Virus record (IMG/VR): IMGVR_UViG_3300042569_002534
Coordinates: 1-38,745 of that record
Direction: 5' to 3' (one strand)
Source of the DNA: a virus
Length of the DNA stretch: 38,745 bases
The stretch's first letter is position 1. Each line of letters opens with the position of its first letter. The position numbers and the translations under genes were made by a program. Positions 9,342 through 29,645 of this stretch are shown here, one piece after another. The notes beneath the pieces are model-generated. The model was not told where the DNA came from. It saw nothing but the letters and a program-made list of their open reading frames with translations, and ran no database searches.

Positions 9342-9364
9342 ATCTCAAATGAGCCATTTGAGAT
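9342..9364 (+). promoter_or_regulatory. Perfect 9-bp hairpin upstream of 9375 gene
   Basis: ATCTCAAAT (9342-9350) pairs with ATTTGAGAT (9356-9364) around the loop GAGCC. There is no U-tract after it, so it is not a standard terminator. Its right arm runs into the late-promoter-like octamer at 9362-9369. It could be an operator or an RNA processing site. Confidence 0.4.
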
Positions 9365-9369
9365 AAGTA
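9362..9369 (+). promoter_or_regulatory. Late-type promoter octamer (variant)
   Basis: GATAAGTA differs by one base from the GATAAATA octamer found before several genes here, and it keeps the recurrent 5-nt gap to the ATG at 9375. Confidence 0.4.
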
Positions 9370-9374
9370 TATGC

Positions 9375-9614
9375 ATGAAAAAATTTAATTTAATAGCAGA
9401 AGGCATATTAAATGGTTTGGCCAAAAATAAAACTTTAGAAGATATAGCAAAAAAACATAAAGTAAAATTGCAAACCATTAAAAAAGAACTTATGATGGGT
9501 TTGAAGATTGAAAAAGAACATACAGATTCTAAATTTACTGCCAAAAAAATAGCGATGGATCATTTAATAGAAGATCCGTATTATTATACCAAATTAAAAA
9601 AAATGGAAAAGTGA
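9375..9614 (+). CDS. DUF5661-like protein with HTH-like N-terminus
   Basis: The C-terminal half (MMGLKIEKEHT...KKIAMDHLIEDPYYYTKLKKMEK, about residues 40-79) matches the DUF5661 pattern of GxKxExEHT followed by AxDHLxEDPxYYTxL. The N-terminal 35 residues (LEDIAKKHKVKLQTIKKEL) look like a helix-turn-helix. DUF5661 proteins occur in phages and bacteria without known function. The family call is from memory. Confidence 0.7.
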   Translation: MKKFNLIAEGILNGLAKNKTLEDIAKKHKVKLQTIKKELMMGLKIEKEHTDSKFTAKKIAMDHLIEDPYYYTKLKKMEK

Positions 9615-9615
9615 T

Positions 9616-10017
9616 ATGGCAATATATAAAGATATAAAAATTACTCAAGAATTTTTAGATAATAATCTAGATACCTATTTTGTTTTCGGTGATAATCTAG
9701 AGAGACGGGGACATGGTGGTGCTGCAAAGTTGAGGGATCATCCACACGCAATTGGGTTTATTACTAAAAAATTTCCAGATAACAAAGATAATTCTTTTTA
9801 TAAACCAGAAGAGTATTCTTCTGTATTTTTTGAAGAACTGGAAAAATTGAAAAGAATAATTGAAAAACGTCCCGATAAAACCTTTTACATATCTCAATTG
9901 GGCGGTGGTTTAGCAAATAGATATTATATTTGGCAAAAATTAATCAGACACAACTTAGTACGAACTCTAGAAAAATTTAAAAACGTAATTTTTTGTTGGG
10001 ATGATTCTTTTAAGTAA
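9616..10017 (+). CDS. Conserved GDNL/GGG-loop phage protein (133 aa)
   Basis: The protein has a strong, recognisable pattern: YFVFGDNLERRGHGGAAKLRDHP (residues about 21-43), GFITKKFP, then SFYKPEEY and YISQLGGGLANRYYIW (about 91-106), and a final strand NVIFCWDD. These resemble an uncharacterised phage family (DUF7831-like). The glycine-rich loops recall macro-domain nucleotide-binding loops, so binding of an ADP-ribose-like ligand is possible but speculative. It starts one base after the preceding stop. Confidence 0.6.
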   Translation: MAIYKDIKITQEFLDNNLDTYFVFGDNLERRGHGGAAKLRDHPHAIGFITKKFPDNKDNSFYKPEEYSSVFFEELEKLKRIIEKRPDKTFYISQLGGGLANRYYIWQKLIRHNLVRTLEKFKNVIFCWDDSFK

Positions 10018-10024
10018 AAATCTG

Positions 10025-10053
10025 TTGAGTTTTCCTGATAAAATCTATATTAT
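10025..10053 (+). promoter_or_regulatory. Sigma70-type promoter abutting ATG
   Basis: TTGAGT at 10025-10030, a 17-nt spacer and TATTAT at 10048-10053, with eight bases to ATG 10062. Confidence 0.6.
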
Positions 10054-10061
10054 AAAAAAAT

Positions 10062-10175
10062 ATGAAAACACTAATATTGAAATTTTTATTATCTTTAGAA
10101 GCAGCACATTTTAGGTTGAAATTTATACATGTACCTCGATTAAGTAAAAAAATAAAAAATGTGTTTAATCTATAA
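10062..10175 (+). CDS. Tiny basic protein (37 aa)
   Basis: The gene lies directly behind a promoter and its TAA is at 10173-10175. The 37-residue product has a hydrophobic N-terminal helix (LILKFLLSLEAAHFRLKF) and a basic tail (RLSKKIK), so it may sit at the membrane surface. The promoter placement is the main support. Function unknown. Confidence 0.5.
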   Translation: MKTLILKFLLSLEAAHFRLKFIHVPRLSKKIKNVFNL

Positions 10176-10179
10176 TAAG

Positions 10180-10187
10180 TATAAATA
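10180..10187 (+). promoter_or_regulatory. T4-type late promoter octamer
   Basis: A perfect TATAAATA lies 13 bases before ATG 10201. Confidence 0.6.
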
Positions 10188-10200
10188 GTATATACATATT

Positions 10201-10593
10201 ATGGAGTTAAAATTTTTAATAGAGCAGGTTCTTTTAGAACAAGAATTGTGTTATATCGCTGAACAGGCTGAATTGATTGCAGAAGATTTGAATAATTTAA
10301 AAGATTTTGCAAATGAAGCGGATAGTGAAGCCGTGGAAGCAAAAAATATTCAAAGGCAAACCAGAGAAGTGATAGATGTTTCTCAATTGCAAGCTTTAAG
10401 ATTACAATTGATGGAATTTTTACAAAATGCTTTAAGACAAAGATTTGACGACAAATCTTTGGATCAATATATAGATTTAATTTTATTCAACCCTAATAAA
10501 GTAGTGGGTCCGCGTGGTGAAAGACTTTTTGACCCAAATGAAAATATGAGGGGTTTGAGGTATCTAAAGACAGACTTTATTGGTGGTCTTTAG
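10201..10593 (+). CDS. Hypothetical late protein (130 aa)
   Basis: This mostly helical acidic protein has a long helix at residues about 3-50, rich in Glu, Ala and Gln, a second helical part (QLQALRLQLMEFLQNALRQRF) and a C-terminal NPNKVVGPRGERLFDP segment. A perfect late octamer 13 nt upstream suggests late expression and possibly a virion or assembly role. No family is recognised. Confidence 0.65.
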   Translation: MELKFLIEQVLLEQELCYIAEQAELIAEDLNNLKDFANEADSEAVEAKNIQRQTREVIDVSQLQALRLQLMEFLQNALRQRFDDKSLDQYIDLILFNPNKVVGPRGERLFDPNENMRGLRYLKTDFIGGL

Positions 10594-10602
10594 GCTTAAC
10601 AA

Positions 10603-11506: not shown

Positions 11507-13162
11507 TTATGCTTCGCAAGATTTGCAAGTCATTATAGATCTTGCTAACTCTTGTGCCGGATTTGCGCTGCGTTGATAATATAAAGATTTAATTCCTTGT
11601 TCCCAAGCAAAGATCATGAGTTCATTTACTTCTTTTGGTTTAGTGTTGGGGGGAATCATTATATTCAAACTTTGACCCTGATCGATATATTTCTGGCGTT
11701 GTGCTGCTTGAATGATAATTTCTTTTTGTGAAATTTCTCCAAATGTTTTAAATACATCCTTTTCTTCTTCTGAAAGAAATTCTATATGTTGAACAGATCC
11801 TCCCTTCACCAAAATAGATTTCCATGTATCATCATCATCTTTACCCTTTTCTTTTAAAAGGGTTTTGAGATGAGGATTTTTAAATGTGAATTTACCTTTT
11901 GCAAGATCTTTTACAAAATAATTACTATTAAGTGGTTCTATACTAGGAGATACTTGGCCAAGAATAAAGCTAGATGATGTTGTGGGTGCAACGGCAAGAG
12001 TTGTTGTATTTCTTCTAGTGTATTCGGTTCCTTCATATATTGGAGCATTACCAAAATTCTGTGCCAAAAATCGTGTTGCATAATCAGCACGTTTTCTAAT
12101 ATCTCCCCAAATTTGATTGTTTAGTATCTTTGCTTCCATTGATTCAAACGCAATCATCTTGGATTGTAACAAAGAATGCCAACCAAGAACACCTACACCT
12201 AATGCTCTTTGATTCATAGCAAACTTTCTAGGCGCTTCCATGAACTTCATTCCTTCTGTCTTTTCAATAAATTCAGACATTACTGCATCCAAGAAATAAA
12301 CTAAAATCTCCACAGCATCGGTAGTTTTCCAATCTTCCCAAGTCTCCAAATTTAAAGAAGAAAGATCACACACAAAAGATTCTTCGTCTTCGTTTGAAAG
12401 CATAATTTCACTACAAAGGTTTGAATTGTTAATTTTCAATCCCTTGTCTTTGTATATTTGAGGTGCTTGGTTATTGGCATTATCACTGAAGAAAATGTAA
12501 GGATAACCAGATTCAAAACGTTTTTTAATTATTTCTCCCCATATCTTACGTTTAGTTTTATCACCGTCAATCATTGATTTCATCCATTCGTCTGATACAC
12601 AAACACCAATAGACATGTCCTGAATTTCATGTCCTTCTGAACGAATTTTAAGAAATTCTTCAATATCTGGATGATCTACCGGAAGATATGCTGCAAATGA
12701 ACCGCGCCGAACATTACCCTGAGAAATGACATTCATTAACTTGTTATACAATTCCATGAAATGTACAGAACCTGTTGATTCACCACCGGAAGAAATTTTA
12801 GTACCACGTCCCCGAACTGCTCCGAAATATGCTGATGTACCACCACCACACTTAGTCATAATACCCACTTCTCCTACCTTACGCATAATAGCTTCCATGT
12901 GATCATCAACATACGAACCAAAGCAAGAAATGGGAAGGCCCCTGTCTCTTCCAAAATTAGACCATATAGGAGAACTTAAACTATAAAATCCTCTAGCCAT
13001 ATAATCTTCAAATTTATCTGCAAACCCCCTTGAATTTAAATATCGTTCTGCTGTTTCTGCTATATCTCTAATTCTTTGTTCTGCTGTTTCTCCCTCTAAC
13101 AAATAACCTCTTTCGAGAAATTTTCGTGAATCTTTGTTTAGCCATTCGTATTTGTTTGTCAT
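11507..13162 (-). CDS. nrdA: Ribonucleotide reductase alpha subunit, class Ia (NrdA)
   Basis: NrdA reduces ribonucleoside diphosphates to deoxyribonucleotides. Key residues are visible: C80 (PISCFGSY) and C265 (VCDLSSLNL) as the redox pair, NLCSE with N248, radical C250 and E252, the tyrosine pair Y528-Y529 of the radical path (SLYYQRS), and the C-terminal CKSC (C546, C549) that accepts electrons from thioredoxin or glutaredoxin. At 551 aa it is shorter than typical NrdA, and the N-terminal ATP cone seems absent, so dATP shut-off through that domain is unlikely. It lies three bases after nrdB. Confidence 0.96.
   Translation of the reverse strand: MTNKYEWLNKDSRKFLERGYLLEGETAEQRIRDIAETAERYLNSRGFADKFEDYMARGFYSLSSPIWSNFGRDRGLPISCFGSYVDDHMEAIMRKVGEVGIMTKCGGGTSAYFGAVRGRGTKISSGGESTGSVHFMELYNKLMNVISQGNVRRGSFAAYLPVDHPDIEEFLKIRSEGHEIQDMSIGVCVSDEWMKSMIDGDKTKRKIWGEIIKKRFESGYPYIFFSDNANNQAPQIYKDKGLKINNSNLCSEIMLSNEDEESFVCDLSSLNLETWEDWKTTDAVEILVYFLDAVMSEFIEKTEGMKFMEAPRKFAMNQRALGVGVLGWHSLLQSKMIAFESMEAKILNNQIWGDIRKRADYATRFLAQNFGNAPIYEGTEYTRRNTTTLAVAPTTSSSFILGQVSPSIEPLNSNYFVKDLAKGKFTFKNPHLKTLLKEKGKDDDDTWKSILVKGGSVQHIEFLSEEEKDVFKTFGEISQKEIIIQAAQRQKYIDQGQSLNIMIPPNTKPKEVNELMIFAWEQGIKSLYYQRSANPAQELARSIMTCKSCEA
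11511..11518 (-). promoter_or_regulatory. Possible late promoter at the nrdA stop
   Basis: On the minus strand AATAAATA lies at the nrdA stop codon, about 50 bases before the 70-aa gene. It fits the window's late-octamer pattern in sequence but not in spacing. Confidence 0.3.
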
Positions 13163-14430: not shown

Positions 14431-15195
14431 ATGTTTAATCCTGATATAAATTTAACATTTTATCCATCTAAACCGGAGTATTTAGATTATATAGAAAAAC
14501 CGTGCCCGGCTATTAAAAATATGCCTTCCTGGCTAGAAAATACTCCTTCTTATTACACAGGTGAAAAATCCGTGGACGAAAATAATGATCCCACATCAAC
14601 CATAAAAAAATGTTTGCCTGTAATAGATTGTATGTCTGCAGGTTATCACATTCCTCTACCTTGTGATGTATGGGTAGAAAGAATTACAGATAGAAACGGC
14701 AGAGAGGGTATAAATTTAAAATGGTCTTTGACACATATCAAAATTGCAGAAATGCATAAAATGGAACAATTAATAAATTATCCGTTAGATACACAATATG
14801 AAGATATAGTTTTTAAATGGATTAATTTATGGACACTGAGGACACCTAAAGGATGGTCTTGTATATTTATTCAGCCTCAGTATCATGAAGAATTACCGTT
14901 TAAATGTATGAGTGCTTTGGTAGATACTGATAAATTTCCCATACCAGTTAATTTTCCCTTTTTGATAAAGAAAGGTTTTGTGGGGTTGATACCTAAAGGA
15001 ACTCCAATGATTCAAGTAATACCATTCAAAAGGCAGAAATTTGTAGCAACTTTCAAACGAGATCATTCAAAATTATTAAATGAATGGTTTAAAGCAGCAT
15101 CTGTATTTTTTGATATTTATAAAAAACACTTTCGAACAAAAAAAGAGTATACAGTAAATGAATCTAAATGCCCATTTGCTAGATTACTCAAGTGA
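14431..15195 (+). CDS. DUF6065-like phage protein (254 aa)
   Basis: The pattern fits the DUF6065 family: CPAIKNMPSWLE near the N-terminus, TIKKCLPVIDCMSAGYHIPLPCDVWVER (about residues 57-84), WINLWTLRTPKGWSCIFIQP (about 130-149), ALVDTDKFPIPVNFPFLIKKGFVGLIPKGTPMIQVIPFKR (about 162-203). Members occur in many T4-like phages; the fold and role are not established to my knowledge. A C-terminal tail holds a late cysteine (KCPF). It converges on the minus-strand HExxH gene, with a 12-nt overlap of the two ends. Confidence 0.75.
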   Translation: MFNPDINLTFYPSKPEYLDYIEKPCPAIKNMPSWLENTPSYYTGEKSVDENNDPTSTIKKCLPVIDCMSAGYHIPLPCDVWVERITDRNGREGINLKWSLTHIKIAEMHKMEQLINYPLDTQYEDIVFKWINLWTLRTPKGWSCIFIQPQYHEELPFKCMSALVDTDKFPIPVNFPFLIKKGFVGLIPKGTPMIQVIPFKRQKFVATFKRDHSKLLNEWFKAASVFFDIYKKHFRTKKEYTVNESKCPFARLLK

Positions 15196-15519
15196 TTTAC
15201 GACATTCTGATAGATATAATTTTTTACTAAAAAATAATAAAAACTCTGCAATTTTAACTGGAGGCAAATAATTTATTATACGAGATTCTACGTATTTTAC
15301 CTTTGTTTCAGACCATTCTGGATATAATTGATGGAAGCATTCATGGAATGCTGTTGGTATTATGTCTTTTCTATAATCAAATTCTAGGTGATCGTTTTCG
15401 TAACATAATCCTACGGATCCTCTCATTTTTCGTAAAACAAAAAAATTAGACTTTTTATTTTTAATCAACTTTAAACATTCATTATACAGCTCGTCTAATT
15501 TTTTATTTGTTATTTTCAT
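15184..15519 (-). CDS. Small HExxH protein, putative metallopeptidase
   Basis: The 111-aa protein has H59-E60-C-F-H63 in a helix after a strand (HLEFDYRKDIIPTAFHECFHQLYPEWSE in pieces), the layout of a minimal zincin with two histidines and a catalytic glutamate; E78 (YVESR) is a candidate third ligand. The arrangement recalls SprT-like or similar small proteases. Its substrate is unknown; processing of a virion protein is one idea. The late octamer GATAAATA lies seven bases before the start. Confidence 0.6.
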   Translation of the reverse strand: MKITNKKLDELYNECLKLIKNKKSNFFVLRKMRGSVGLCYENDHLEFDYRKDIIPTAFHECFHQLYPEWSETKVKYVESRIINYLPPVKIAEFLLFFSKKLYLSECRKSLE

Positions 15520-15525
15520 AACATA

Positions 15526-15813
15526 TTATTTATCGGATAATATTTCTTTAAATTTTGTTTCTGCATCTTTTTGGTTTTGATAAGTAAATCCAGATACTCC
15601 CCATTGCGTTGAAGATGGGTACATTTCTGATGGCGGTATATAATTGCCGCCCAATGTCATGCCATTGTGGGATTTAATTTTAATCACTTCAAACCATTCA
15701 CTTTTCACCGCAATATCTAAATTTTTTTGTTTATATATTGCTACGTCATTTACACGTTTAATCTGAGTATACACAAATCCTTTTTTATTAATTTCTAGTG
15801 GTAATTTTTTCAT
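15526..15813 (-). CDS. Hypothetical protein (95 aa)
   Basis: This small, beta-rich protein has a central RVNDVAIYKQ..IAVKSEWFEVIKIKSHNG stretch and a C-terminal GVSGFTYQNQKDAETKFKEI. Its last codons, GAT AAA TAA, form the late octamer used by the next gene. No family is recognised. Confidence 0.65.
   Translation of the reverse strand: MKKLPLEINKKGFVYTQIKRVNDVAIYKQKNLDIAVKSEWFEVIKIKSHNGMTLGGNYIPPSEMYPSSTQWGVSGFTYQNQKDAETKFKEILSDK
15527..15534 (-). promoter_or_regulatory. Late promoter octamer formed by a gene end
   Basis: GATAAATA on the minus strand is the Asp-Lys-stop end of the 95-aa gene. Seven bases separate it from the start of the HExxH gene at 15519. Confidence 0.55.
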
Positions 15814-16698: not shown

Positions 16699-16706
16699 AC
16701 TAAATA
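16699..16706 (+). promoter_or_regulatory. Late-type promoter octamer
   Basis: ACTAAATA, with a five-base gap to ATG 16712. Confidence 0.5.
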
Positions 16707-16711: not shown

Positions 16712-17473
16712 ATGGATTCACTAGTCGCAAAATATCTCGATGTATTAAATGAAGATGTCAACAAAACAGGAGTGGTAAAAAACGCTGTTCCAAAACCCGG
16801 AGCCGATCTTTTTGGAACACCAAAAGCAGAAGATACTAAAAAACAATCTGAAAACGTAGACATTGAAACACCAAAAGAAGACAAGGACAATTCTTGTGAT
16901 GAGTGTGACGGAGAACCAGAAAAACTAACAACTAAAAGTGAATCAGTTAATCCTTTTGACGAACTTTATAATAAAATTTTAAAAGAAGAAACATTTGGTT
17001 GGGCTATTGATGAAGACGAATCCGAAAATAATGAGTTCGGTGGTGAAGAAGAAATGTCAGAAGAGTCTGAATCAGGGGAAGAAGAAAATGAAGAAGAAAA
17101 GGAAGGTTTAGCTGCTGTTTTAGATCATTTAAAATCTGCAGTGTCTGCATTGGAAACATTACTTAATGATGCCGATGAAGAAGAAAATGAATTTGGCGAA
17201 GAAGGCGAAGAAGTAAAAGAAGAAGCCGTTGATGCAGAGACTCTTGGCCATGCCTTAGTCGATCAGGAAAGACTTACAGGCGGATTGACCGGTAAAAACA
17301 ATGTAGTCAAAGCAGGTATCACTGCAGTTAAAAAGAAAGCAGAAGTACCCACATCAAACAAAGGGCATGACGGTGAAGTTAAAAAAGAATCTGAGTCTGC
17401 TGGTAAACAATTAACTGGTAAAAATAACAAAGTAGACGGTGTTAAGGTTGGAAATTTATTCAACAACAAATAA
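16712..17473 (+). CDS. Acidic low-complexity late protein (253 aa)
   Basis: The N-terminus begins MDSLVAKYLDVLNED. Residues about 100-175 are extremely rich in Glu with Asp and Ser. Two related segments, GLTGKNNVVKAGI (about 191-203) and QLTGKNNKVDGVKVG (about 233-247), flank a lysine-rich stretch. It is preceded by a late octamer at 5 nt and closed by a strong terminator. A scaffold-core or internal head protein would fit this composition, but the assignment is an inference. No catalytic motif is seen. Confidence 0.65.
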   Translation: MDSLVAKYLDVLNEDVNKTGVVKNAVPKPGADLFGTPKAEDTKKQSENVDIETPKEDKDNSCDECDGEPEKLTTKSESVNPFDELYNKILKEETFGWAIDEDESENNEFGGEEEMSEESESGEEENEEEKEGLAAVLDHLKSAVSALETLLNDADEEENEFGEEGEEVKEEAVDAETLGHALVDQERLTGGLTGKNNVVKAGITAVKKKAEVPTSNKGHDGEVKKESESAGKQLTGKNNKVDGVKVGNLFNNK

Positions 17474-17498: not shown

Positions 17499-17536
17499 AA
17501 CTCCGTTTGTTTAATAGACAAACGGAGTTTTTTTTT
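17499..17536 (+). terminator. Strong rho-independent terminator
   Basis: AACTCCGTTTGT (17499-17510) and ACAAACGGAGTT (17518-17529) form a perfect 12-bp stem with a 7-nt loop, followed by nine T. It ends the acidic-protein transcript. The last T of its tail is the first base of the next late promoter. Confidence 0.93.
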
Positions 17537-17543
17537 ATAAATA
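17536..17543 (+). promoter_or_regulatory. T4-type late promoter octamer
   Basis: Perfect TATAAATA directly after the terminator T-run, five bases before ATG 17549. This placement predicts a leaderless mRNA. Confidence 0.7.
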
Positions 17544-17548: not shown

Positions 17549-17881
17549 ATGGACTTTAAAACTTTTTTTTCTACTTCGACACCACATACAAGAGAACATC
17601 AACAAACTCCTATAAGGTCGTTCAACAGAAAACGTCTCAATCAGGTTCCTTATTCAAAAAATCCCCAAAAAGCACATCCATATATTACCACATTGCTCAA
17701 AAATAAAATTTCCAAAAACGAAAAAATATCTGAATTATTAGCTGCAGATATAGCAAAAGTTTATGGGTTAAATTTTGAAAAAGAAGAAAATAAAGATTTT
17801 GTTAAAAATATCAATAGAACTGGTGCATCTATTAAAAGAAAAGGCGACAGTTATTACATAACATATAATCCAGATAAATAA
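17549..17881 (+). CDS. Hypothetical late protein (110 aa)
   Basis: The start is ATG 17549, right behind the late octamer; an earlier in-frame start at 17507 lies inside the terminator stem. The N-terminal half is basic and extended; the second half includes ELLAADIAKVYGLNF and a final beta hairpin (ASIKRKGDSYYITYNPDK). The last codons GAT AAA TAA form the promoter of the next gene. No family is recognised; its place before the neck gene suggests a head or connector role. Confidence 0.65.
   Translation: MDFKTFFSTSTPHTREHQQTPIRSFNRKRLNQVPYSKNPQKAHPYITTLLKNKISKNEKISELLAADIAKVYGLNFEKEENKDFVKNINRTGASIKRKGDSYYITYNPDK
17873..17880 (+). promoter_or_regulatory. Late promoter octamer formed by a gene end
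   Basis: GATAAATA is the Asp-Lys-stop end of the 110-aa gene, and five bases later comes ATG 17886. Confidence 0.65.
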
Positions 17882-17885: not shown

Positions 17886-18512
17886 ATGGAGACTCTTCGT
17901 TATTTAAATAAGTCTGTTAATTCCAATGAAAGAAATAATTTTGATAATTGGAATCTAGAACTTATAAACATATATGGGCAGGAGGTTGAATATTATACTA
18001 ATTTAACACAACTTGCTTCAGCTTATGCTTTATACGGTGAACAACCAGATGCTGGTTTTGCCGATGCACATAAACTTATTGTTTTATTGAATTTAAACAA
18101 TGACGCTTATCTACTATCAAAATTTGGCATAGTTGCTGATAGTGATTTAAATGGAGTTATACATCCAAAACCCTTTGAATTTATTTTCGGTGCAGGGACT
18201 GAACCCAAAGCAGGAGATTTACTTAAATTGACAGAGTTTGGTTCTGACCGTATACATTATCCCAAAAGAGGTGCTACTGTATACGAACTGACAGAAGTTA
18301 TTGATGAATTTCAAATCAATCCGTTAGGTGGGCATTATATGTGGTTTTTTAAAGCTAGAAGATATGACTTTAGTCATGAACCACAAAGTCCCGGTGCAGG
18401 AGAGGGTAATGTTGCTGCAAATGATAATGATGTAATAGAACAACTTTCACAGCAAAATTTTGATTACGAACAATCTGCTTGCACCAGAACTAGTGTTTAC
18501 GGAGAGTATTAA
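17886..18512 (+). CDS. T4 gp14-like neck protein
   Basis: The 208-aa length and pattern fit T4 gp14-type neck proteins: ELINIYGQEVEYYT near residues 25-38, a central LSKFGI and IHPKPFEFIFG, GDLLKLTEFGSDRIHYPKRGATVYELTEVIDE (about 112-143), and GGHYMWFFKARRYDFSHE (about 148-165). gp14 joins the head to the tail with gp13. The C-terminal 40 residues are Asn/Gln rich. It converges with a minus-strand gene, overlapping by four bases. Confidence 0.65.
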   Translation: METLRYLNKSVNSNERNNFDNWNLELINIYGQEVEYYTNLTQLASAYALYGEQPDAGFADAHKLIVLLNLNNDAYLLSKFGIVADSDLNGVIHPKPFEFIFGAGTEPKAGDLLKLTEFGSDRIHYPKRGATVYELTEVIDEFQINPLGGHYMWFFKARRYDFSHEPQSPGAGEGNVAANDNDVIEQLSQQNFDYEQSACTRTSVYGEY

Positions 18513-19812: not shown

Positions 19813-20610
19813 CTATTTAGTCCCACTCTTAGGTTTCCAAGTGTCTTTTTCATTTTCTAATTTGTTTACTACAAATTTAACGAATTCAGATCTGACTATA
19901 TCGTCTTTTGTAAATTGAAAATAATGTATACCATGTTTTTTGGACTCTTCGTCTGCAAAAATATCACATATTTTTGAAAACCCCCCGGATTTATTTTCTG
20001 CCAAATCCGATTGCATAGGATCACCACAAAATATAATTTTTGAAAATTCTCCCATACGTGTAATAGTGGTAATCAATTCCCTAAAAGTTATATTTTGGCA
20101 TTCGTCTACTATAATAACTTTAGCTGCCCAGTGTAATCCTCTAATATAATTTACAGGCGTTGCACTAAATCTTTCATCATTACGCAAACGATTTAAAGTA
20201 CCTTTTTCTAAAAGTTCCTCTAATTTTTCCATAAATGGAACCATATAAGCTTCAAACTTTTCATCGATAGAACCTGGCAAATAACCGATTTTAGAATCCG
20301 CACTTTCAACAGCACTTCTGATAAAAACTATGTCTGATATTTTTTTAGATTTTAATAGATTTAAAGCACCGTAAACTGCTGTAAGTGTTTTAGATGTGCC
20401 TGCCGGCCCTTCTATTAAAATACACTTGGCATTTTTGTCTTTAATAATTTCTATTAATTGTTTTTGTTTTTCTGTCCAAGGTAATTCTTTAATAGAAAAT
20501 TCAAATCCAACTTTTTCTCTTTGAAAGACATAAGGAGATTCATCTTTCGATTTTTCAATGTATGTATTTGAATTTTCTGTTTTGTTTTTTGTTTTTTGCT
20601 TTTTGTGCAT
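19813..20610 (-). CDS. phoH: PhoH-like P-loop ATPase
   Basis: The 265-aa protein has Walker A GPAGTSKT (residues 68-75) and Walker B VIIVDECQN (D169, E170), followed by the sensor-like region FCGDPMQSDL, the standard PhoH/SF1-helicase-like core. PhoH genes are frequent in marine phages; an RNA helicase or ATPase role is assumed from host relatives. The first 30 residues are basic and disordered. Its last codons (ACT AAA TAG) form the promoter of the next gene. Confidence 0.92.
   Translation of the reverse strand: MHKKQKTKNKTENSNTYIEKSKDESPYVFQREKVGFEFSIKELPWTEKQKQLIEIIKDKNAKCILIEGPAGTSKTLTAVYGALNLLKSKKISDIVFIRSAVESADSKIGYLPGSIDEKFEAYMVPFMEKLEELLEKGTLNRLRNDERFSATPVNYIRGLHWAAKVIIVDECQNITFRELITTITRMGEFSKIIFCGDPMQSDLAENKSGGFSKICDIFADEESKKHGIHYFQFTKDDIVRSEFVKFVVNKLENEKDTWKPKSGTK
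19814..19821 (-). promoter_or_regulatory. Late promoter octamer formed by the phoH end
   Basis: ACTAAATA on the minus strand is the Thr-Lys-stop end of phoH, and five bases later comes the ATG at 19808. Confidence 0.6.
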
Positions 20611-20885: not shown

Positions 20886-20899
20886 CATTTATATTTATC
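20886..20899 (-). promoter_or_regulatory. Overlapping late octamers
   Basis: GATAAATA (20892-20899) overlaps TATAAATG (20886-20893) on the minus strand. The second lies five bases before ATG 20880, matching the recurrent spacing. Confidence 0.55.
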
Positions 20900-20935: not shown

Positions 20936-20943
20936 GATAAATA
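20936..20943 (+). promoter_or_regulatory. Late promoter octamer of the sheath gene
   Basis: GATAAATA, 16 bases before ATG 20960; with the octamers at 20886-20899 it forms a divergent late promoter pair. This one leaves a short leader. Confidence 0.6.
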
Positions 20944-20959: not shown

Positions 20960-23656
20960 ATGGCAACAACAATAATCCAATCACCAAGAACTATTGAATC
21001 ACCCGGTGTTCAAATCATAGAAACAGATTTGACCGCAAGATCATCAGATAGAGATCTTGTCCCAACTGCAGTCGTAACCGGATTTGCTTCACAAGGCCCT
21101 ACGGACGAAATAATCACCGTTAAAAGTACATCTGAATTTCAAAACATTTTCGGATTACCGCAAAACGCAGCAGAAAGATATTTGTGGCATACTGTAGATC
21201 AATTATTGGCTTCTGGGCCAGAAGTAAAAGTGACTAGACTTCCATACGGAGCTAACGGTGGCGACGGATCTCAAAATTATTATAGTGCATTGTTGTTCCC
21301 TGTATTGCCACACGGTACAGACTTATCTTCAGCTTCTGCTTATTACATATTGCCTCCCAAATCTATATTAATAAGTGACGGAGAATATGAAACTTACATT
21401 AAAGAAAATAATGTGAATTGGAATTCAAGTGTAGGGTATGTCAGTTCATTAAATGCACAGACATTTACGTTAAACACTTTAGTAGCTTCTAGTATTTTCT
21501 TAGATATTGTTACAGAATTAAATATTAATGATCCAGCGGATTTGGCGGACATTGAAACTTGGACAGAACCCGGTTGGTATACCCCGACAGTACCAAATAC
21601 CAATCAACATTATTTGACACGCAGTCTTTCCGATTATGATATCAATGGTATATTTATTGATAGATTGAAGGATTATATTAAATTGGATGTCAATAATAAA
21701 ACTGGTTTAACAAATCAACTCGGAAAATATCAAGGTGCTCCTACTGTTTGGGTTGATCAATTTACTACAGACTTTACTACAATAATTAATAATACAACAC
21801 CTTATGAAGATTATGTATCCGGAACAATTTCTGATGATATTGATTATAATTTAAAATACCATTCTTTAAGATCTGCAGAGTCATTTACTGTAAACAATTT
21901 AGAAGATATACATAAGGCTGGTATTGTTGTAGTAAACAAAGACAAGTTGGGTGTAAATGAATTGTATGAAGGGTTTTATATAGGCTTGACTGATAACTCA
22001 GACGATACACCAACTACAAATTTTGAATCTATTAAAGAGGTAAAAGCTGTTAATAATGTAAAGGAAAGCACTGGTTCTGGTGGCACAACGGTTTATACTC
22101 AAGATTTTATTTCTGTGCCTCAAAACAGATTAAGTTTCCCTCTTACAGAACCTTATTCAAGTTCATCATTTTCTAGTATATCAGAAAGAATCTCTAGATA
22201 TCCTTCTTATGATTTTTCTACTAGTGAATATGATGATTGTGTTAAACTTTTCTTATTCAAATTAAATACATCTGCAAATTTACCAGATGGTATTACACTC
22301 AATTACTCAACTGCAGAGGCATATGTTGGATCACTTAATAATAAGAGAACTCAAACTGACTCTAAAGGCGGAAAATTGGTAGCATTTAATTTAGAAACAA
22401 AATTAGAAAACAATGAAAGTTCTCGTATCAGATTAGCTATCAATCCTAATATTTCACAATCTAAGGATTGGACTGATATTTATGGCAAGGCAATAAAAAA
22501 GGTAAGAATAGCCGATGATACTAAAGCTTTATGGTCTGCTGGGTCTTATATCCAAACAACAGCTACACGAGATAAAAAAATTGGTAATCTTGAACTTAAA
22601 ATAGATCGTGCTTTAAAAATGTACGAACTTACAGAAAATGAAAATTCTAACATTGATGTAGTGTGTGAAGCTGGATTAGGTACTATTAACGCTGGTACAA
22701 AAGCAGCAGAACTTAGCTTGGCATCATTTGATGGTTCTTTTGATGATACAGTTTCTGTAGATACACTCAACTTAAAAACTGTGCCTAAAAATGAAGCATA
22801 TTATGATGTACCAGACGTTTTGAGGGATTCTTACTCTAGAATTGTTAATGTGTTTAGAAACTTTGCACAAAGTCGTAAAAACCATGTTTTTATAGCAGAT
22901 CCTTTAAGATATATATTCGTACAAGGTCGCAATTCCCGTGTAGATAGCAAAAAAGCATTTGATTTTGCTACAGACATATTTACACCGTTGCGTAATCTAT
23001 ACGGCAACACAGAAGGTTCCAGTTACATGACAGTTTATGCGAACTGGATTAGAAAGTATGATAATGCTTCTGACCAATTTGTATGGTTGCCTTCTTCTGG
23101 GTTTGCTGGGCGTGCACATTTCCATGCTAAAAACTTTAGACCATGGACAGCACCTGCTGGTTTCAACTACGGCAAATTACACGGAGTAAAAGAATTGGCT
23201 ATTAACCCGAATCAAAGACAGCGTGATATATTATATCGCAATTTCTTCAATCCTATAGTTGATTATCCTAGAGATGGAGTTGCTATTTACGGTCAAAAAA
23301 CATTTAGCCGTACAGAAAGTGCTTTTGATAGATTGAATGTTAGAAATCTTTTCTTACATTTAGAAAAACAAGTATCAAATACTTTAAACCAATTTGTGTT
23401 TGAACCTAACACCATTCCTACACGCAATCGTGTAGTTCTTCGTTTGACACCTTATTTTGAGGCAGCTAAACGTTACGAGGGTCTTTATGATTATCGCTTA
23501 ATTTGCGATGAAAGAAATAATACTTCTGAAGTAATAGATAACAATGAATTGAGATTGGCAGTATATATACAACCAGTCAGATCTGCAGAATTTATTCTTG
23601 CTGATTTCGTTGCTACTAGAACTGGTACCGATTTAGATGAATTGGTGGGAAATTAA
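20960..23656 (+). CDS. Tail sheath protein (T4 gp18-like)
   Basis: This subunit forms the contractile sheath around the tail tube. The N-terminus SPGVQIIETDLT...PTAVVTGFASQGPTDEIITVKS (about residues 13-54) and the C-terminal region (GVKELAINPNQRQRDILYRNFFNPIVDYPRDGVAIYGQKT, then NVRNLFLHLEKQVSNTLNQFVFEPN) are the usual sheath signatures. At 898 aa it is much longer than T4 gp18 (659 aa); the extra length lies in the middle, probably as surface-exposed insertions. It heads the late tail block. Confidence 0.95.
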   Translation: MATTIIQSPRTIESPGVQIIETDLTARSSDRDLVPTAVVTGFASQGPTDEIITVKSTSEFQNIFGLPQNAAERYLWHTVDQLLASGPEVKVTRLPYGANGGDGSQNYYSALLFPVLPHGTDLSSASAYYILPPKSILISDGEYETYIKENNVNWNSSVGYVSSLNAQTFTLNTLVASSIFLDIVTELNINDPADLADIETWTEPGWYTPTVPNTNQHYLTRSLSDYDINGIFIDRLKDYIKLDVNNKTGLTNQLGKYQGAPTVWVDQFTTDFTTIINNTTPYEDYVSGTISDDIDYNLKYHSLRSAESFTVNNLEDIHKAGIVVVNKDKLGVNELYEGFYIGLTDNSDDTPTTNFESIKEVKAVNNVKESTGSGGTTVYTQDFISVPQNRLSFPLTEPYSSSSFSSISERISRYPSYDFSTSEYDDCVKLFLFKLNTSANLPDGITLNYSTAEAYVGSLNNKRTQTDSKGGKLVAFNLETKLENNESSRIRLAINPNISQSKDWTDIYGKAIKKVRIADDTKALWSAGSYIQTTATRDKKIGNLELKIDRALKMYELTENENSNIDVVCEAGLGTINAGTKAAELSLASFDGSFDDTVSVDTLNLKTVPKNEAYYDVPDVLRDSYSRIVNVFRNFAQSRKNHVFIADPLRYIFVQGRNSRVDSKKAFDFATDIFTPLRNLYGNTEGSSYMTVYANWIRKYDNASDQFVWLPSSGFAGRAHFHAKNFRPWTAPAGFNYGKLHGVKELAINPNQRQRDILYRNFFNPIVDYPRDGVAIYGQKTFSRTESAFDRLNVRNLFLHLEKQVSNTLNQFVFEPNTIPTRNRVVLRLTPYFEAAKRYEGLYDYRLICDERNNTSEVIDNNELRLAVYIQPVRSAEFILADFVATRTGTDLDELVGN

Positions 23657-23678: not shown

Positions 23679-23686
23679 GATAAATA
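23679..23686 (+). promoter_or_regulatory. Late promoter octamer
   Basis: GATAAATA, six bases before ATG 23693 of the tube gene. A separate promoter fits the high demand for tube protein. Confidence 0.65.
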
Positions 23687-23692: not shown

Positions 23693-24232
23693 ATGGCTGG
23701 AATACTCAATCAACAAGGCATAGCTAATTTCTACGATGTAGCTTCTAGAAAAGATTTCTTTAGACAAAATCTTTTTAGAGTAATCAACTTCGGAGGAGCC
23801 AATTTCTTTAGTCAAGACGATTTGCTCTATATTGAATCTGCTACATTACCTAGCAAATCAATCAACAACGTTGCGGTCCCTTACATGGGTCTTTCTTTCA
23901 ACGTGCCCGGAACCGTGCAATATCCTAATAGCAACAACTGGTCTGTACAGATGCGTATGCCTGCAGATTTAAGCATACGTGATAAAATGGAAGACTGGAT
24001 GACTAGTATTTTTGATGATCGTTCTAGTACTGGTAATTATGGCATACCCTCTGGTGATGAAGGTGTAACTACATTGCTTCTTTTGGATAAAAGAGGAGCA
24101 ACTATACGCACTTATGACTTATTTGGTTGTTATATAACTACTTTGGGTGACATGACTTTAAATGTTACTACAGCCGGTGAGATAGTTACAGTGCCAGCCA
24201 CTATAGCATATCAATACTGGAGAGTACGTTAA
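23693..24232 (+). CDS. Tail tube protein (T4 gp19-like)
   Basis: The 179-aa length is close to T4 gp19 (163 aa). NFGGANFFSQDDLLYIESATLPSKSINNVAVPYMGLSFNVPGTVQYP (about residues 32-78, seen in pieces) and the C-terminal IAYQYWRVR match gp19-type tube proteins, which stack as hexameric rings inside the sheath. Location directly after the sheath gene supports the call. Confidence 0.9.
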   Translation: MAGILNQQGIANFYDVASRKDFFRQNLFRVINFGGANFFSQDDLLYIESATLPSKSINNVAVPYMGLSFNVPGTVQYPNSNNWSVQMRMPADLSIRDKMEDWMTSIFDDRSSTGNYGIPSGDEGVTTLLLLDKRGATIRTYDLFGCYITTLGDMTLNVTTAGEIVTVPATIAYQYWRVR

Positions 24233-24246: not shown

Positions 24247-24254
24247 GATAAATA
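24247..24254 (+). promoter_or_regulatory. Late promoter octamer
   Basis: GATAAATA, five bases before ATG 24260. Confidence 0.65.
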
Positions 24255-24259: not shown

Positions 24260-24979
24260 ATGGTGTATCCTACTTCAGGACCGTATGAGACATATGTTCA
24301 ATTGCTATCTGAATGGCCCACTGCACTGGCTTCTGCCAGTCAGTGGTTCATGTGGTTTGATTTAAGTCAAATAAGTTTACTGAGATCAGACATACAAAAA
24401 AAATTACAATCTAAAGAAAGTGTATTGGGCCCAGCGGGATGGCAATTAAATAAAAACACTCTCGATACATTAGTAGACTGGAAATTACAGTTGAATGCGG
24501 ATCAATTAATGGGATGTGTTTTTGCTAAACAAGTCAATTTGCCAGGAGACGGATTTGATGCTGGTAATAACGGATTAGATTACGGAGGTTATACAGCACC
24601 TGCCACTTCAAATTCTCGAAGTAAATATTCAAAATTAAATATTACATTTGTGGAAAACAATGCATCTTTTGTTGATTTTGTAATAAAACCTTGGTTGGTG
24701 CTGTCTTCCTATTACGGGCTAGTTTCAAGACCGTATAACAGTATCAAAAATGTAAAATGTTCTTGGTGCGACATATGTTTTTTGTCGCGCACATACGCAG
24801 GAATGGCACCGGCTGTAAGGAAAATTTATAGGTTTACTAATTTGGTTCCAGTGAGTATACAGGGAGAACAATATTCTTACATGACAGATGATATGAAATA
24901 CACATCTGTGGATTTTGTATATGATCAATATTATATACAAGATGCTAATACGCCTGGTTTATTATACGATCAGCGATAA
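24260..24979 (+). CDS. Tail-tube-fold or tube-associated protein (239 aa)
   Basis: The second half (ITFVENNASFVDFVIKPWLVLSSYYGLVSRP, about residues 127-157; later RFTNLVPVSIQGEQYSYMTDDMKYTSVDFVYDQYYI, about 190-225) has the strand pattern of the gp19/gp48/gp54 tube fold. The first half is unique. A CSWCDIC motif (about 166-172) adds three closely spaced cysteines. Its position between the tube and baseplate genes fits a tube-end or baseplate-junction role. Confidence 0.6.
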   Translation: MVYPTSGPYETYVQLLSEWPTALASASQWFMWFDLSQISLLRSDIQKKLQSKESVLGPAGWQLNKNTLDTLVDWKLQLNADQLMGCVFAKQVNLPGDGFDAGNNGLDYGGYTAPATSNSRSKYSKLNITFVENNASFVDFVIKPWLVLSSYYGLVSRPYNSIKNVKCSWCDICFLSRTYAGMAPAVRKIYRFTNLVPVSIQGEQYSYMTDDMKYTSVDFVYDQYYIQDANTPGLLYDQR

Positions 24980-24982
24980 TTA
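24975..24982 (+). promoter_or_regulatory. Possible late octamer (variant)
   Basis: GATAATTA differs at one position from GATAAATA but keeps the five-base gap to ATG 24988. Confidence 0.35.
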
Positions 24983-24987: not shown

Positions 24988-25875
24988 ATGGAATATTATC
25001 CATATGCTTTACAATTTCCTTTCTCTAAAACAATTTTAAATTTTAGAGAATTAACTTGTTACGAACAGTCTGTATTGTCTAAAATTAATATAACTTTACC
25101 GCCATCTCAAGAATATCGAACAGATTATCAAGAGGTTTTATTGGAATTGTTTCAATCAACTCTTAAAAACAAAAACAATATCAATGATTTGGATATTGTA
25201 GAATTTTTAATGTTCGCTGTTCGGTTGAGAGCAGTTTCTATAGGTTCTTTTTTAGAATTTACTGTGGGAGATGAAGAAGAAAAAAGGAAAAAAATAAAAT
25301 TTGATTTATATAGTTTATTAAAAAATATATATGATATAGGCCAAATAATATATGATTTTGACTCTATAGAGAGTGACGATGTTGAAGTTAAATTAAAATG
25401 GCCGGATTTAAAAGGAGAATTTCACTTTTTAAGTTTGATATCAAAGGATAACACAGAAAAATTTTTATCTACAATGTGTGAATTTGTTGAGTATTTAAAA
25501 ATTAAAGGACAGATGTTTAATTTTAAATCTTTCGGAATTAAAGAAAGGGGGGAATTGTTTGATTTATTGCCCGTATCTGTAAAAAATATGATTCAAACAA
25601 ATATCATTTCTCTTTTGCAAAAAATATCAGAGATGCCTTTATTTGAATTACAAGAGTTTGAAAGTTATAAATTTGAATTTTATAATTCAACCATACAAGA
25701 CATAATACGTTTTATTTTCGCCAATGATGAAAACAGTTTAATGATAGAAAATATTTTTTTATTAAACAAGGGATTTACTATAACAGACATAGATAAAATG
25801 TCTCCAGTAATGAAACAAAACTATATAAATCATTTTATAGAACAGGATAATAATAAGAATAGTGAAGTGCAATAA
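24988..25875 (+). CDS. Baseplate hub assembly protein, gp26/gp51-like
   Basis: The start ALQFPFSKTILNFRELTCYEQSVLSKIN (about residues 7-34) and the body (PVSVKNMIQTNIISLLQKIS, FYNSTIQDIIRFIF) resemble the T4 baseplate protein family covering gp26 and gp51 (Pfam T4_baseplate). It forms an adjacent pair with the next gene, as gp51 and gp26 are neighbours in T4. In T4 these are required for hub assembly. Which of the two T4 proteins it corresponds to cannot be told. Confidence 0.6.
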   Translation: MEYYPYALQFPFSKTILNFRELTCYEQSVLSKINITLPPSQEYRTDYQEVLLELFQSTLKNKNNINDLDIVEFLMFAVRLRAVSIGSFLEFTVGDEEEKRKKIKFDLYSLLKNIYDIGQIIYDFDSIESDDVEVKLKWPDLKGEFHFLSLISKDNTEKFLSTMCEFVEYLKIKGQMFNFKSFGIKERGELFDLLPVSVKNMIQTNIISLLQKISEMPLFELQEFESYKFEFYNSTIQDIIRFIFANDENSLMIENIFLLNKGFTITDIDKMSPVMKQNYINHFIEQDNNKNSEVQ

Positions 25876-25886: not shown

Positions 25887-25894
25887 AATAAATA
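25887..25894 (+). promoter_or_regulatory. Late promoter octamer
   Basis: AATAAATA, seven bases before ATG 25902. Confidence 0.5.
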
Positions 25895-25901: not shown

Positions 25902-26717
25902 ATGAGCCAAGAAAATACTGTTACTAATTTTAATGATATTCTTAAAAATTTAAAAGATTTAACTAATACATTCGTAGTAGAAGCGTATGTGCCTTCTTTA
26001 GGAAGTTCTTTGACCTTCAAGGAATTAAACGCTAAACAACAAAAACTTTTATTAGAAACTCTGGCAGATGATTCTTTATATAAAACACAATTTGCTAAAC
26101 AATTCCATAATATATTAAAAGAAAATATTGTGTCTAATTTTGACATAAATTCTTTGTCAGTTTTTGATAAAATATTTATTGGTATAAGTTTACGTAATAA
26201 AATTTCTAATAAATATAATGTTGCATTTAACGAAAATCCATTATATTCGGAAGAAATAATTTTGGAAAATGTTTTGAACAATTTTAAAAATTATAAACAA
26301 CCTAAAACAGAACAGATTAAAATTGTTAAAAATGATGCAGAAATATGCGTAGAATTATCGGTGCCTTCAATAATAATTGAATCAAAATACGAAGAAGAAT
26401 TGTATACAAATTACAAAAAAGTAGAAGATATTAAGGATCCTAAAGAAGTGGGCAATATATTATCAAATGCCTTTATAGGAGAAATATCAAAATATATTTC
26501 AAAAATAATATTTTCAGGGCAGGAAGTAGAATTCAATAATTTGACTGTACTGCAAAGAATAAGACTAACGGAGCAATTGACCGGAGATATCATTCAAAAC
26601 ATTTTGACCAAGATTACGGAGTGGAAAGAATCGGTTAATTCATTCATTACTGTAGAATCTTCAGATAAAAAATATACTAAAGTTTTAAGTTTAGATAATT
26701 TATTATTTTTATCATAA
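25902..26717 (+). CDS. Baseplate hub assembly protein, gp26/gp51-like (second copy)
   Basis: VVEAYVPSLGSSLTFKELNAKQQKLLLETL (about residues 25-54) is the hallmark of the T4_baseplate family (PSL..F.L..KQ.K.LL), and the end has FSGQEVEFNNLTVLQRIRLTEQLTGDIIQNILTKI (about 206-240). It is similar in layout to the upstream gene, so the two are likely ancient paralogues, like gp26 and gp51 of T4. Confidence 0.65.
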   Translation: MSQENTVTNFNDILKNLKDLTNTFVVEAYVPSLGSSLTFKELNAKQQKLLLETLADDSLYKTQFAKQFHNILKENIVSNFDINSLSVFDKIFIGISLRNKISNKYNVAFNENPLYSEEIILENVLNNFKNYKQPKTEQIKIVKNDAEICVELSVPSIIIESKYEEELYTNYKKVEDIKDPKEVGNILSNAFIGEISKYISKIIFSGQEVEFNNLTVLQRIRLTEQLTGDIIQNILTKITEWKESVNSFITVESSDKKYTKVLSLDNLLFLS

Positions 26718-26737
26718 TCTCAATAATCGTCTAGACG

Positions 26738-26745
26738 TATAAATA
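26738..26745 (+). promoter_or_regulatory. T4-type late promoter octamer
   Basis: Perfect TATAAATA, five bases before ATG 26751 of the tape measure gene. Confidence 0.7.
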
Positions 26746-26750
26746 TTAAT

Positions 26751-29645
26751 ATGTCTGGTCAAGAATTTGATGATTTTTTAAATAAGTTTGTAAAATTAGG
26801 AGAGCCTATTAAGGCAGAAAAATTTTTACTCAATTTATTGGTTGGAGAAGATCAGACGGATATTTTAAGGCAAGATTTTAAAAGTAAATTTTTATTACCC
26901 CTTTTCAATAAAATGGAATCCTTTAAAGAAGGATTAGTTAAAAATAGAGAAGAGGCGGATAAAATATCGGAAGAATTAATTTCTTTAAAGGAAGAAATTA
27001 AAAAAGGTAAACAACAATTTTTACCTCAAAAGGATATTGCAGTTCCAGTTGTTGGCGAGAACAAAACACCAACAATCTCATCTACTCCATTAACTCAAGA
27101 AAAAACAGAACCTGTCAAAGATTTAAATTTTCTTTCTAAATACATTGACAACAAAGATACATCAAAAAAATTAACTGATATATCTAATATATTATACAAA
27201 AATTCAGAAAGTAATATTAAAAATTTACAGAATTTGGTAGAAAAAATATCTACCAACAAAACAAATTCAGTTCAAGAAATAGGTCAAGAACAGAAAACAT
27301 TAGGACCTAAAGAAACTGTCATATCGTTTTCTGCTTCAACTAATGATTTTATATCCAACAAAATAAATGAAATTATAAAAGGAGAAGATAAAAAAGAATT
27401 AGATAATGTAGTAATACAAGATCAACGACCTAAGGGTGGGATAATGGATTTTATCACTGGTCTAGTAACCGGTTTACCTGCATTATTAGCCGCTGTGGGT
27501 GGTGCTACTGTTCTTGCTGGTATGTTTTGGCCTGAAATAAAAAAGTTTATAGGAGATAAATTTGGTGATAAAGCAGCCGAAGTTTTTGGACAATTGCAAG
27601 GAACTGTTAACGCTATTGGTAAATTTTTTACAATAGGAGGATTACAATTAAAATTTGGTGGCATGTTTAAAAATGTCGGAGAACTTCTGGGAAGAATGGG
27701 AGACGATTTAATTAATTCTTTCAAAGGTATTTTTCTCGGATTAGCAGATGAAGGCGCAGAAGGAGCTGCAAAAGGCGCAGCTGCCGCTATAACTAAAGGA
27801 GGGATGTTTAAAGGAATTTTAAAAGGAGCTGCTGGTGCTATCTTAAAGGGAACTTCAAAAGTTGTTCTTAAAGGGATTCCTTTAATAGGTGCTTTAATAA
27901 GTTTTGCAGATGCTTATGGCAGATTTAAAGAAGGTAACATAATACAAGGAACTATAGATATAGCAGCTGGGTTGACTGGATTAATACCAGGTCTGGGTAC
28001 GCCTATCTCCATTGGCTTGAGTCTTTTAAATGCATTTATAGATACTCGAGGAGAAAATAAAGAAGAAGTAAAGCAACAAAGTATAAACATTAGTAGTATG
28101 CTTTTAAAAGGTGTTGGAATGTTTGCTAAAGTGGGAAGTAAATTAAAATTTTTACCGCTCATTGGCACTGTAATGAGTTTTGCAAGTGCTTGGGATCGTT
28201 TTAAAAATGGAGAAGTTATAAAGGGTGTATTAGATGTGGCGTCTGGTATTGCTGGGCTATTCCCTGGTGTCGGTACAGCTTTGTCTATTGGTGTCGGAGC
28301 ACTCAATGCATTTTTAGATTACCAAGAAGAAAAAAGTGGATTTGCTTCTACTTCTGTTATGTTGGGAAGTTGGGTTAAAGGTTTGTGGGATTGGGCAAAA
28401 AATACAAGTTTTGTTAAAACAATATTAAATTTAACAGAGGGTATTACAGATATGTTATCGCCCTCAAATATGCGCAAAGGTTTAGAAACATTAAATCAAG
28501 TACCTTATTTTGGTTCTTTTGCTGGAGTATTGTTGAGTATTGTAGATTCATTTCAAACTACAACAGATGCTAACGGAAACAAAAAAACTAATTTTTCTTT
28601 TACATCTTTGGCTAATAATTTAAAGAAAAATATATTTAAAAATATGTCTGCTCTTATACCAGAAGGTATGGGTATACGTAAATGGTTTGCGGAATTATTG
28701 GGAGTAGACTATAATCAAAATGACGACACAGAATCACAGAAGCCTATAGCAACTGTACCTAAGAGAGAGTTATCTAAAGTTGAAAAACAAGTTATTAAAA
28801 ATCTTCCTACTGAATATAATGAAGAAGATCATAATAAGGTACAAGAAGAAGGCAAAACTAATATAGCACGGCGCAAAGAAATAGATTCTAAACTAGAAAC
28901 TTTAAAAAATTCAACGATTCAAACCCCAGAAGATAAAGCAGATATTAAACGTTTAGAACAAGAAAAGAACATTTTGATGGAAGATCAAATGGCGAGAAGT
29001 TATAAGGCTAAACGTTATAAAGAACTTAAAGACGGGTCTAAGATTACAACTACAGAAGATTATGGCATAACTGCAGAAAGTGAGAAAGCAGATCTAGAGA
29101 AAGAAATACAAGGTTTAGAAGGCCAAATAAAAAAATTAAAAAGCGAAAGAGGATTTAGCAGAGATGAGGGTGCTAAAAATAAAGTAAAAGAATTAAACGA
29201 TAAAATTAACGAATTAAAAACCCCAAGTATTCCTATATTGGATGGTTCTAAAGGTGTAGATTTGTTTTCTGATGCTATTAAATATAGTTCCTTGTCTAAA
29301 CAATTTAATTCTTTAACGTATCAATCACCAAATTCTCTAGATAATTTTTCTATTAGACCATCACAAGACGATCACTTATTTGCCATGAAAAAAGGTGGTG
29401 CTATAGATAATACATTTAAAGATTTAAAAGCCGCTTTGGATGTATTATCTTTTAACATAACAAATCTTATTAAAACAAATTCTCAAAATCAACAACAAAT
29501 ACAACCTCAACAACCTATTATAGTAAATAATAATTCTACAGAAAAATCATTTGATGATCATATTAAATTTTCTGCAGATAGGGATGAAATATGCTATAGT
29601 AGGTTAGAGTGGGTTAGAGATAATGCTTACACAAGAATAATATGA
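26751..29645 (+). CDS. Tape measure protein (T4 gp29-like position)
   Basis: This 964-aa protein has an N-terminal helical part (1-200), a hydrophobic Gly/Ala-rich centre, and a charged coiled coil at about 700-830 (KSERGF..NKVKELNDKINELK), the usual tape measure layout. It determines tail length and may be ejected with the DNA. The centre includes two related segments 92 residues apart (from about 376 and 468), each with PLIG, SFA, RFK, PG-GT, SIG and LNAF; 31 of 56 positions agree by eye. Its place between gp26/51-like and gp48/54-like genes matches gp29 in T4. Confidence 0.75.
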   Translation: MSGQEFDDFLNKFVKLGEPIKAEKFLLNLLVGEDQTDILRQDFKSKFLLPLFNKMESFKEGLVKNREEADKISEELISLKEEIKKGKQQFLPQKDIAVPVVGENKTPTISSTPLTQEKTEPVKDLNFLSKYIDNKDTSKKLTDISNILYKNSESNIKNLQNLVEKISTNKTNSVQEIGQEQKTLGPKETVISFSASTNDFISNKINEIIKGEDKKELDNVVIQDQRPKGGIMDFITGLVTGLPALLAAVGGATVLAGMFWPEIKKFIGDKFGDKAAEVFGQLQGTVNAIGKFFTIGGLQLKFGGMFKNVGELLGRMGDDLINSFKGIFLGLADEGAEGAAKGAAAAITKGGMFKGILKGAAGAILKGTSKVVLKGIPLIGALISFADAYGRFKEGNIIQGTIDIAAGLTGLIPGLGTPISIGLSLLNAFIDTRGENKEEVKQQSINISSMLLKGVGMFAKVGSKLKFLPLIGTVMSFASAWDRFKNGEVIKGVLDVASGIAGLFPGVGTALSIGVGALNAFLDYQEEKSGFASTSVMLGSWVKGLWDWAKNTSFVKTILNLTEGITDMLSPSNMRKGLETLNQVPYFGSFAGVLLSIVDSFQTTTDANGNKKTNFSFTSLANNLKKNIFKNMSALIPEGMGIRKWFAELLGVDYNQNDDTESQKPIATVPKRELSKVEKQVIKNLPTEYNEEDHNKVQEEGKTNIARRKEIDSKLETLKNSTIQTPEDKADIKRLEQEKNILMEDQMARSYKAKRYKELKDGSKITTTEDYGITAESEKADLEKEIQGLEGQIKKLKSERGFSRDEGAKNKVKELNDKINELKTPSIPILDGSKGVDLFSDAIKYSSLSKQFNSLTYQSPNSLDNFSIRPSQDDHLFAMKKGGAIDNTFKDLKAALDVLSFNITNLIKTNSQNQQQIQPQQPIIVNNNSTEKSFDDHIKFSADRDEICYSRLEWVRDNAYTRII

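Follow-up and report, generated by a model that had tools for sequence, protein, structure and literature searches.

T4-type late octamers close to start codons in an uncultured lake myophage and its relatives: candidate leaderless late mRNAs

Late transcription in bacteriophage T4 is a textbook system, and the late mRNAs of T4 relatives are assumed to have a leader containing a ribosome-binding site. The DNA examined here, the whole 38,745-nucleotide stretch of IMG/VR record IMGVR_UViG_3300042569_002534 (the window), raises the question of whether T4-like phages always keep that leader. An initial annotation had noticed T4-type late octamers before many genes on both strands, often exactly five bases from the ATG, and had proposed that the late mRNAs are leaderless. 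In T4, the octamer TATAAATA has been placed at -13 to -6 (PMC1524935), as that annotation had stated. The published position agrees with the base composition of phages with long leaders, where purines, over the first eight bases after the octamer, peak at the sixth (76–83% purine, 0–6% C). At a gap of five bases, this sixth base is the A of the ATG. The open-licence literature searched yielded no account of T4-like phages with leaderless late transcripts.

The window is part of the genome of an uncultured myophage of the T4 superfamily, with tail sheath, tail tube, terminase, neck protein, PhoH-like and ribonucleotide reductase genes as markers. Membership of the superfamily is indicated by the T4-like terminase, sheath and tube in the window and by the DNA polymerase and clamp loader of its relatives. 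The nearest cultured phages are distant, the window terminase having ~31% identity to those of cyanophages. A clade of lake-phage relatives is present in IMG/VR, including contigs G001 and G002 (210.6 and 211.0 kb) and further contigs of 131 and 114 kb, which were analysed over their whole length. A scan with the window tail tube protein as the query found no relatives; tail tube orthologues do exist in the loci of relatives reached via the terminase. Two window proteins (23693–24232 and 32904–33527) match the tail tube family, and S-SRM01 likewise has two genes annotated as tail tube. The large terminase of relative G004 (IMGVR_UViG_3300032226_000551) is a single 977-aa frame with an intein-like insert. 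The nearest phage-collection relatives of the window protein at 14431–15195 (phrog_7084, no function) are haloarchaeal HF2-like viruses, at 27–32% identity.

Octamers at the gene starts of the window

All octamers of the initial annotation are present at the places and on the strands that it gave. They are listed below with the number of bases to the ATG (gap); for minus-strand octamers, the coordinate quoted in the text is the low end.

9362–9369, plus strand: late octamer variant GATAAGTA, one mismatch, gap 5 to the ATG of the 9375–9614 gene (DUF5661)
10180–10187, plus strand: TATAAATA, gap 13 to the ATG at 10201, predicted 8-nt leader
15527–15534, minus strand: GATAAATA, gap 7 to the ATG at 15519
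16699–16706, plus strand: ACTAAATA, exact, gap 5 to the ATG at 16712
17500–17535, plus strand: intrinsic terminator with a 13-bp stem, a loop of 3 nt and a run of seven T, which reaches the 17536 octamer without a gap
17536–17543, plus strand: TATAAATA, exact, gap 5 to the ATG at 17549
17549–17881, plus strand: 110-aa gene with a predicted leaderless late mRNA, no Pfam match
17873–17880, plus strand: GATAAATA, exact, gap 5 to the ATG at 17886 (head closure Hc2 / T4 neck protein)
19814–19821, minus strand: ACTAAATA, exact, gap 5 to the ATG at 19808; overlaps the upstream phoH-like gene
20886–20899, minus strand: overlapping octamers before the ATG at 20880, GATAAATA at 20899–20892 (gap 11) and TATAAATG at 20893–20886 (gap 5, one mismatch)
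20936–20943, plus strand: GATAAATA, gap 16 to the ATG at 20960 (tail sheath); orthologues retain a short leader
23679–23686, plus strand: GATAAATA, gap 6 to the ATG at 23693 (tail tube); orthologues mostly at gap 5–7
24247–24254, plus strand: GATAAATA, exact, gap 5 to the ATG at 24260
24975–24982, plus strand: GATAATTA, one mismatch, gap 5 to the ATG at 24988; weak, poorly kept
25887–25894, plus strand: AATAAATA, gap 7 to the ATG at 25902; weak, not kept in orthologues
26738–26745, plus strand: TATAAATA, exact, gap 5 to the ATG at 26751 (964 aa)

The nine five-base gaps claimed at the outset are of unequal quality. Six belong to exact octamers (16699, 17536, 17873, 24247, 26738 and, on the minus strand, 19814), and three to octamers with one mismatch (9362, 24975 and, on the minus strand, 20886). 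The variant at 9362 is a good one because in the relatives only one hexamer is more enriched than TAAGTA. The minus-strand site at 20886 fits better as a longer-gap case: a better octamer lies at gap 11 before the same ATG, and TAAATG has no clear enrichment near ATG in the relatives. The positions at 24975 and 25887 are correct, but both sites are graded weak because their orthologues mostly have no clear octamer. The wider gaps were also given correctly, with six bases at 23679, seven at 25887 and at 15527 (minus), 13 at 10180 and 16 at 20936. Conservation is seen at several of the other sites. Octamers also stand just 5' of the ATG in the G002 and G004 orthologues of the 15519 (minus) gene, octamer-like sites are retained 5' of the orthologues of the 19808 (minus) gene in several relatives, and orthologues of the 26751 gene in G001, G003, G005, G006, G008 and G011 have CATAAATA at gap 5.

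The pattern at the gene starts of the window is real and is not due to chance. In a control with 49 window gene starts held fixed, each 40-nt upstream region was dinucleotide-shuffled 1000 times. Exact octamers at gap 5 numbered 6, against 0.05 expected (shuffle maximum 2). With up to one mismatch, there were 10 at gap 5 against 0.56 expected (maximum 4) and 13 at gaps 5–7 against 1.7 expected (maximum 6). None of the 1000 shuffles matched any of the observed counts, and the gap-5 count was unreached at every other single gap too. A shuffled sequence giving as many octamers at this spacing had been named beforehand as grounds against the proposal, and the control fails to give them.

Spacing in the lake clade and in named phages

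A motif search had been suggested in related phages, and it finds the same placement of the octamer near ATG. Gaps were counted in the window and G001–G004, to the first ATG opening at least 60 codons. TAAATA and TAAGTA together occur 5 times at gap 3, twice at gap 4, 38 times at gap 5, 50 at gap 6, 30 at gap 7 and 18 at gap 8. The distribution thus drops sharply below 5, as at a wall, and has its mode at 5–7, and the smaller contigs of the clade have the same 5–7 peak. Such a wall would arise if the AUG had to lie at or downstream of +1, with +1 at the sixth base after the octamer. The enrichment is specific to the motif: NATAAATA lies 5–8 nt 5' of ATG 53 times in five clade genomes, whereas the other 20 permutations of ATAAATA average 11.9 occurrences, and TAAATA (z 24) and TAAGTA (z 22) are the top two of all hexamers 5–7 nt 5' of ATG. 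In T4 and HTVC008M, the top hexamers at this distance are Shine-Dalgarno sequences. Most of the gap 5–7 genes of G001 and G002 have no alternative in-frame upstream start codon. The gene starts were set by a simple ORF rule, and orthologues, which align from the same methionine for several gap 5–7 genes, support but do not prove these starts. Some genes, the tail sheath gene among them, keep predicted leaders of 3–11 nt. The octamer core at gap 5–14 leads genes for 93 proteins in G001 and G002, whose best-matched families are mostly virion structural, including tail tube, tail fibre, baseplate wedge, head-tail adaptor and scaffold.

The same gap rule was applied to reference phages. In T4, Syn9, S-PM2, S-SRM01, AG-345-L05, Aeh1 and phiM12, nearly all gaps are at least 12 nt, so that the comparison with T4 and cyanophages, which had also been proposed, finds long leaders in those phages. 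T4, whose late promoters depend on gp55, the co-activator gp33 and the sliding clamp gp45, shares with the lake clade the octamer, the late structural genes, a gp55 with most of the promoter-reading pocket residues, and gp45, which is divergent in the clade. It differs in its octamer-to-ATG distance of 12–40 nt with a Shine-Dalgarno sequence in most cases, against 5–7 nt without one in the clade, and the clade, unlike T4, also accepts G at -8 (TAAGTA). The NATAAATA late promoters of the cyanophages S-PM2, Syn9 and S-SRM01 resemble those of the clade in their relaxed first octamer base, and in S-SRM01, too, gp55 is surrounded by UvsW and gp47-like genes; however, cyanophage gaps are mostly 19–40 nt.

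A second group with short gaps, made up of cultured ocean phages, was found among Kyanoviridae. Octamers at exactly gap 5 number 12 in SAR11 phage HTVC008M, 6 in SAR11 phage Mosig and 3 in OM43 phage Melnitz. HTVC008M has no octamers at gaps 0–4 or 6, and its annotated starts agree for three genes: a baseplate wedge gene, a tail completion gene and the one that follows the major capsid gene. The fixed five-base spacing therefore holds exactly in these marine phages, whereas in the lake clade it loosens to 5–7. The three phages resemble the lake clade in the short-gap class of octamers and in carrying bS21. They differ in that many of their other genes use Shine-Dalgarno sequences and in that late promoters of another class, at least 16 nt from the ATG, occur beside the first. 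In a terminase tree, they group with the cyanophages, apart from the lake clade, and form a grade below the cyanophages within Kyanoviridae. A single clade of all short-gap phages was rejected on this tree (p-AU 0.0003), in which long branches were flagged. A leader with a ribosome-binding site has apparently been lost in two separate T4-like groups. In Rhodothermus phage RM378, which has a Bacteroidota-related host, neither a gp55 match nor a short-gap signal was found. Late promoters have been sought in pelagimyophages, reportedly without success (PMC7029224); the octamer-gap pattern offers a simple rule for finding late promoters in uncultured phages.

Late transcription machinery and the position of the start

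Homologues of gp55, the late sigma factor, were found in six relatives. In G001, the one inspected, the gene sits between a UvsW-like helicase and a gp47-like nuclease. It is absent from the window fragment itself; judging from the relatives, the window phage would have gp55 as well. The residues of T4 gp55 that read the -10-like element have been identified in a structure (PMC7892883). Of these, the clade keeps L54, Y97 and T99 and the aromatics at 86 and 95, and it differs at N13 and R57, so the start position could shift by a base or so. Homologues of gp45, gp44 and gp43 are also present in relatives. For the divergent sliding clamp gp45, a search with a profile built from known phages picked out a single protein of ~250 aa per genome in eight relatives, with E values from 5e-9 to 1e-3; single-sequence and Pfam PF09116 searches for gp45 gave no match.

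The octamers are very likely late promoters. We consider it highly probable, from the sequence comparisons, that they are gp55-dependent promoters of the T4 type moved downstream, with transcription starting on the A of the start codon or 1–2 bases before it. Observed at the sequence level are the motif, its spacing and specificity, the wall at 5, the missing Shine-Dalgarno signal, the late-gene context, gp55, the abutting terminators and the second group at exactly 5; from these we infer the actual 5' end and the route by which ribosomes initiate. Clade gp55, presumably with gp45 and the host RNA polymerase, would read the octamer at -13 to -6, and RNA synthesis would begin at the sixth base downstream of it. 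Late messages would then begin with AUG or with a stub of 1–2 nt, lack a ribosome-binding site, and be translated by a leaderless or Shine-Dalgarno-independent route. At gaps of 6 and 7, leaders of 0–2 nt are expected. At gap 6, T occupies the canonical +1 position in 54% of cases; together with the many gaps of 6–7, this makes leaders of 1–2 nt or a shifted start likely. The initial proposal of leaderless late mRNAs is supported by the sequence checks, with the amendment that spacing in the lake clade is 5–7 and that some leaders are probably 1–2 nt long.

How far upstream the RNA begins is the point on which one alternative turns. The RNA polymerase and gp55 of the clade might start a few bases further upstream than those of T4, or the 5' end might be processed, so that leaders are short (~3–8 nt) and not absent. 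The divergence of clade gp55, the modal gap of 5–7 rather than 5 and the leaders of 3–11 nt predicted for some genes anyway are in its favor. Against it stand the clade wall at 5, the exact-5 class found in Mosig as well as HTVC008M, and the maximum of purines at the sixth base, each of which indicates a +1 at that base; we regard the alternative as improbable. It is quite improbable that the promoter near the ATG is secondary and that the bulk of late protein comes from longer read-through mRNAs starting upstream. Many octamer genes do lie in same-strand runs, and some late genes of the window lack an octamer; however, strand switches isolate several octamer genes, and terminators adjoin octamers. 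The terminator at 17500–17535 has counterparts at the same place, with different stems, before the orthologues of the 17549 gene in G001, G002, G003 and G005, and two HTVC008M genes have nearly the same layout, the terminator ending at the octamer or a few bases before it. At genes of this type, any message that is not read through must start in the few bases between.

The motif might also be no promoter at all but an A/T-rich sequence context for translation starts in a host that works without Shine-Dalgarno sequences, such as the A enrichment before start codons in Bacteroidota-like hosts. Starts in Bacteroidota have been reported to be A-rich near -10 (PMC5397173), and genes without an octamer also have AT-rich starts, for example AATAAT-ATG. 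Against this, the same letters in permuted order occur 4–5 times less often at this spacing, and the octamer matches the late motif known from T4 and cyanophages. The abutting terminators and the sharp wall at gap 5 also speak against it. HTVC008M has octamers at exactly 5 though its other genes use Shine-Dalgarno sequences. We hold this explanation to be highly improbable and retain gp55-dependent initiation at or next to the start codon.

Translation signals, host and bS21

Shine-Dalgarno motifs in G001–G004 are no commoner near the start than 40–57 nt upstream, while the same comparison gives a near-start enrichment of 7.6-fold in T4 and 14.5-fold in HTVC008M. Among genes with an octamer core 5–24 nt upstream, a Shine-Dalgarno sequence lies between core and start in 1 of 183 in the clade and in 10 of 13 in T4. 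The genome-wide lack of enrichment in G001–G004 therefore points to a host that does not use Shine-Dalgarno sequences. Leaderless mRNAs have been inferred to be frequent in Bacteroidota and other phyla with low Shine-Dalgarno usage (PMC5397173). Bacterial leaderless mRNAs are like those predicted in the clade in that the promoter puts the start codon at or next to the 5' end; they are unlike them in that a host sigma promoter is used, whereas here a phage late sigma factor has its own promoter class. A Bacteroidota host is suggested only, the sole hints being the missing Shine-Dalgarno signal and the published bS21 phages (PMC9723584). The large subunit of ribonucleotide reductase (window 11507–13162; L258), as a host query, matched just two contigs of metagenome-assembled genomes. 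One match had 73% identity to a protein on a 35-kb contig, JABXKB010000009.1, labelled as a Lokiarchaeota genome; this contig is probably a mis-binned phage contig.

Phage bS21 has been tied to late expression and to freshwater Bacteroidota hosts with a hidden anti-Shine-Dalgarno on their ribosomes (PMC9723584, PMC9976891). Genes for bS21 were found in G001 (9618–9755, minus), G002 (134233–134376, minus), HTVC008M (91237–91392), Mosig (9983–10132, minus) and Melnitz (35461–35619). The protein was searched for and not found in T4, Syn9, S-PM2, S-SRM01, P-SSM2, P-SSM4, Aeh1, KVP40, phiM12, AG-345-L05, OLIVR5, Yut3 and RM378; Campylobacter phage F341 belonged to the bS21 search set and stood outside the spacing set. 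The link between bS21 and short gaps is suggestive only, a hypothesis and not a result, because it concerns only two lineages. A bolder proposal, which we think unlikely, is that leaderless late mRNA is a phage translation switch, in which phage bS21 would remodel host ribosomes late in infection and gp55 promoters would be placed so that leaderless messages suit them. The question of why aquatic phages carry bS21 becomes testable in the cultured phage HTVC008M.
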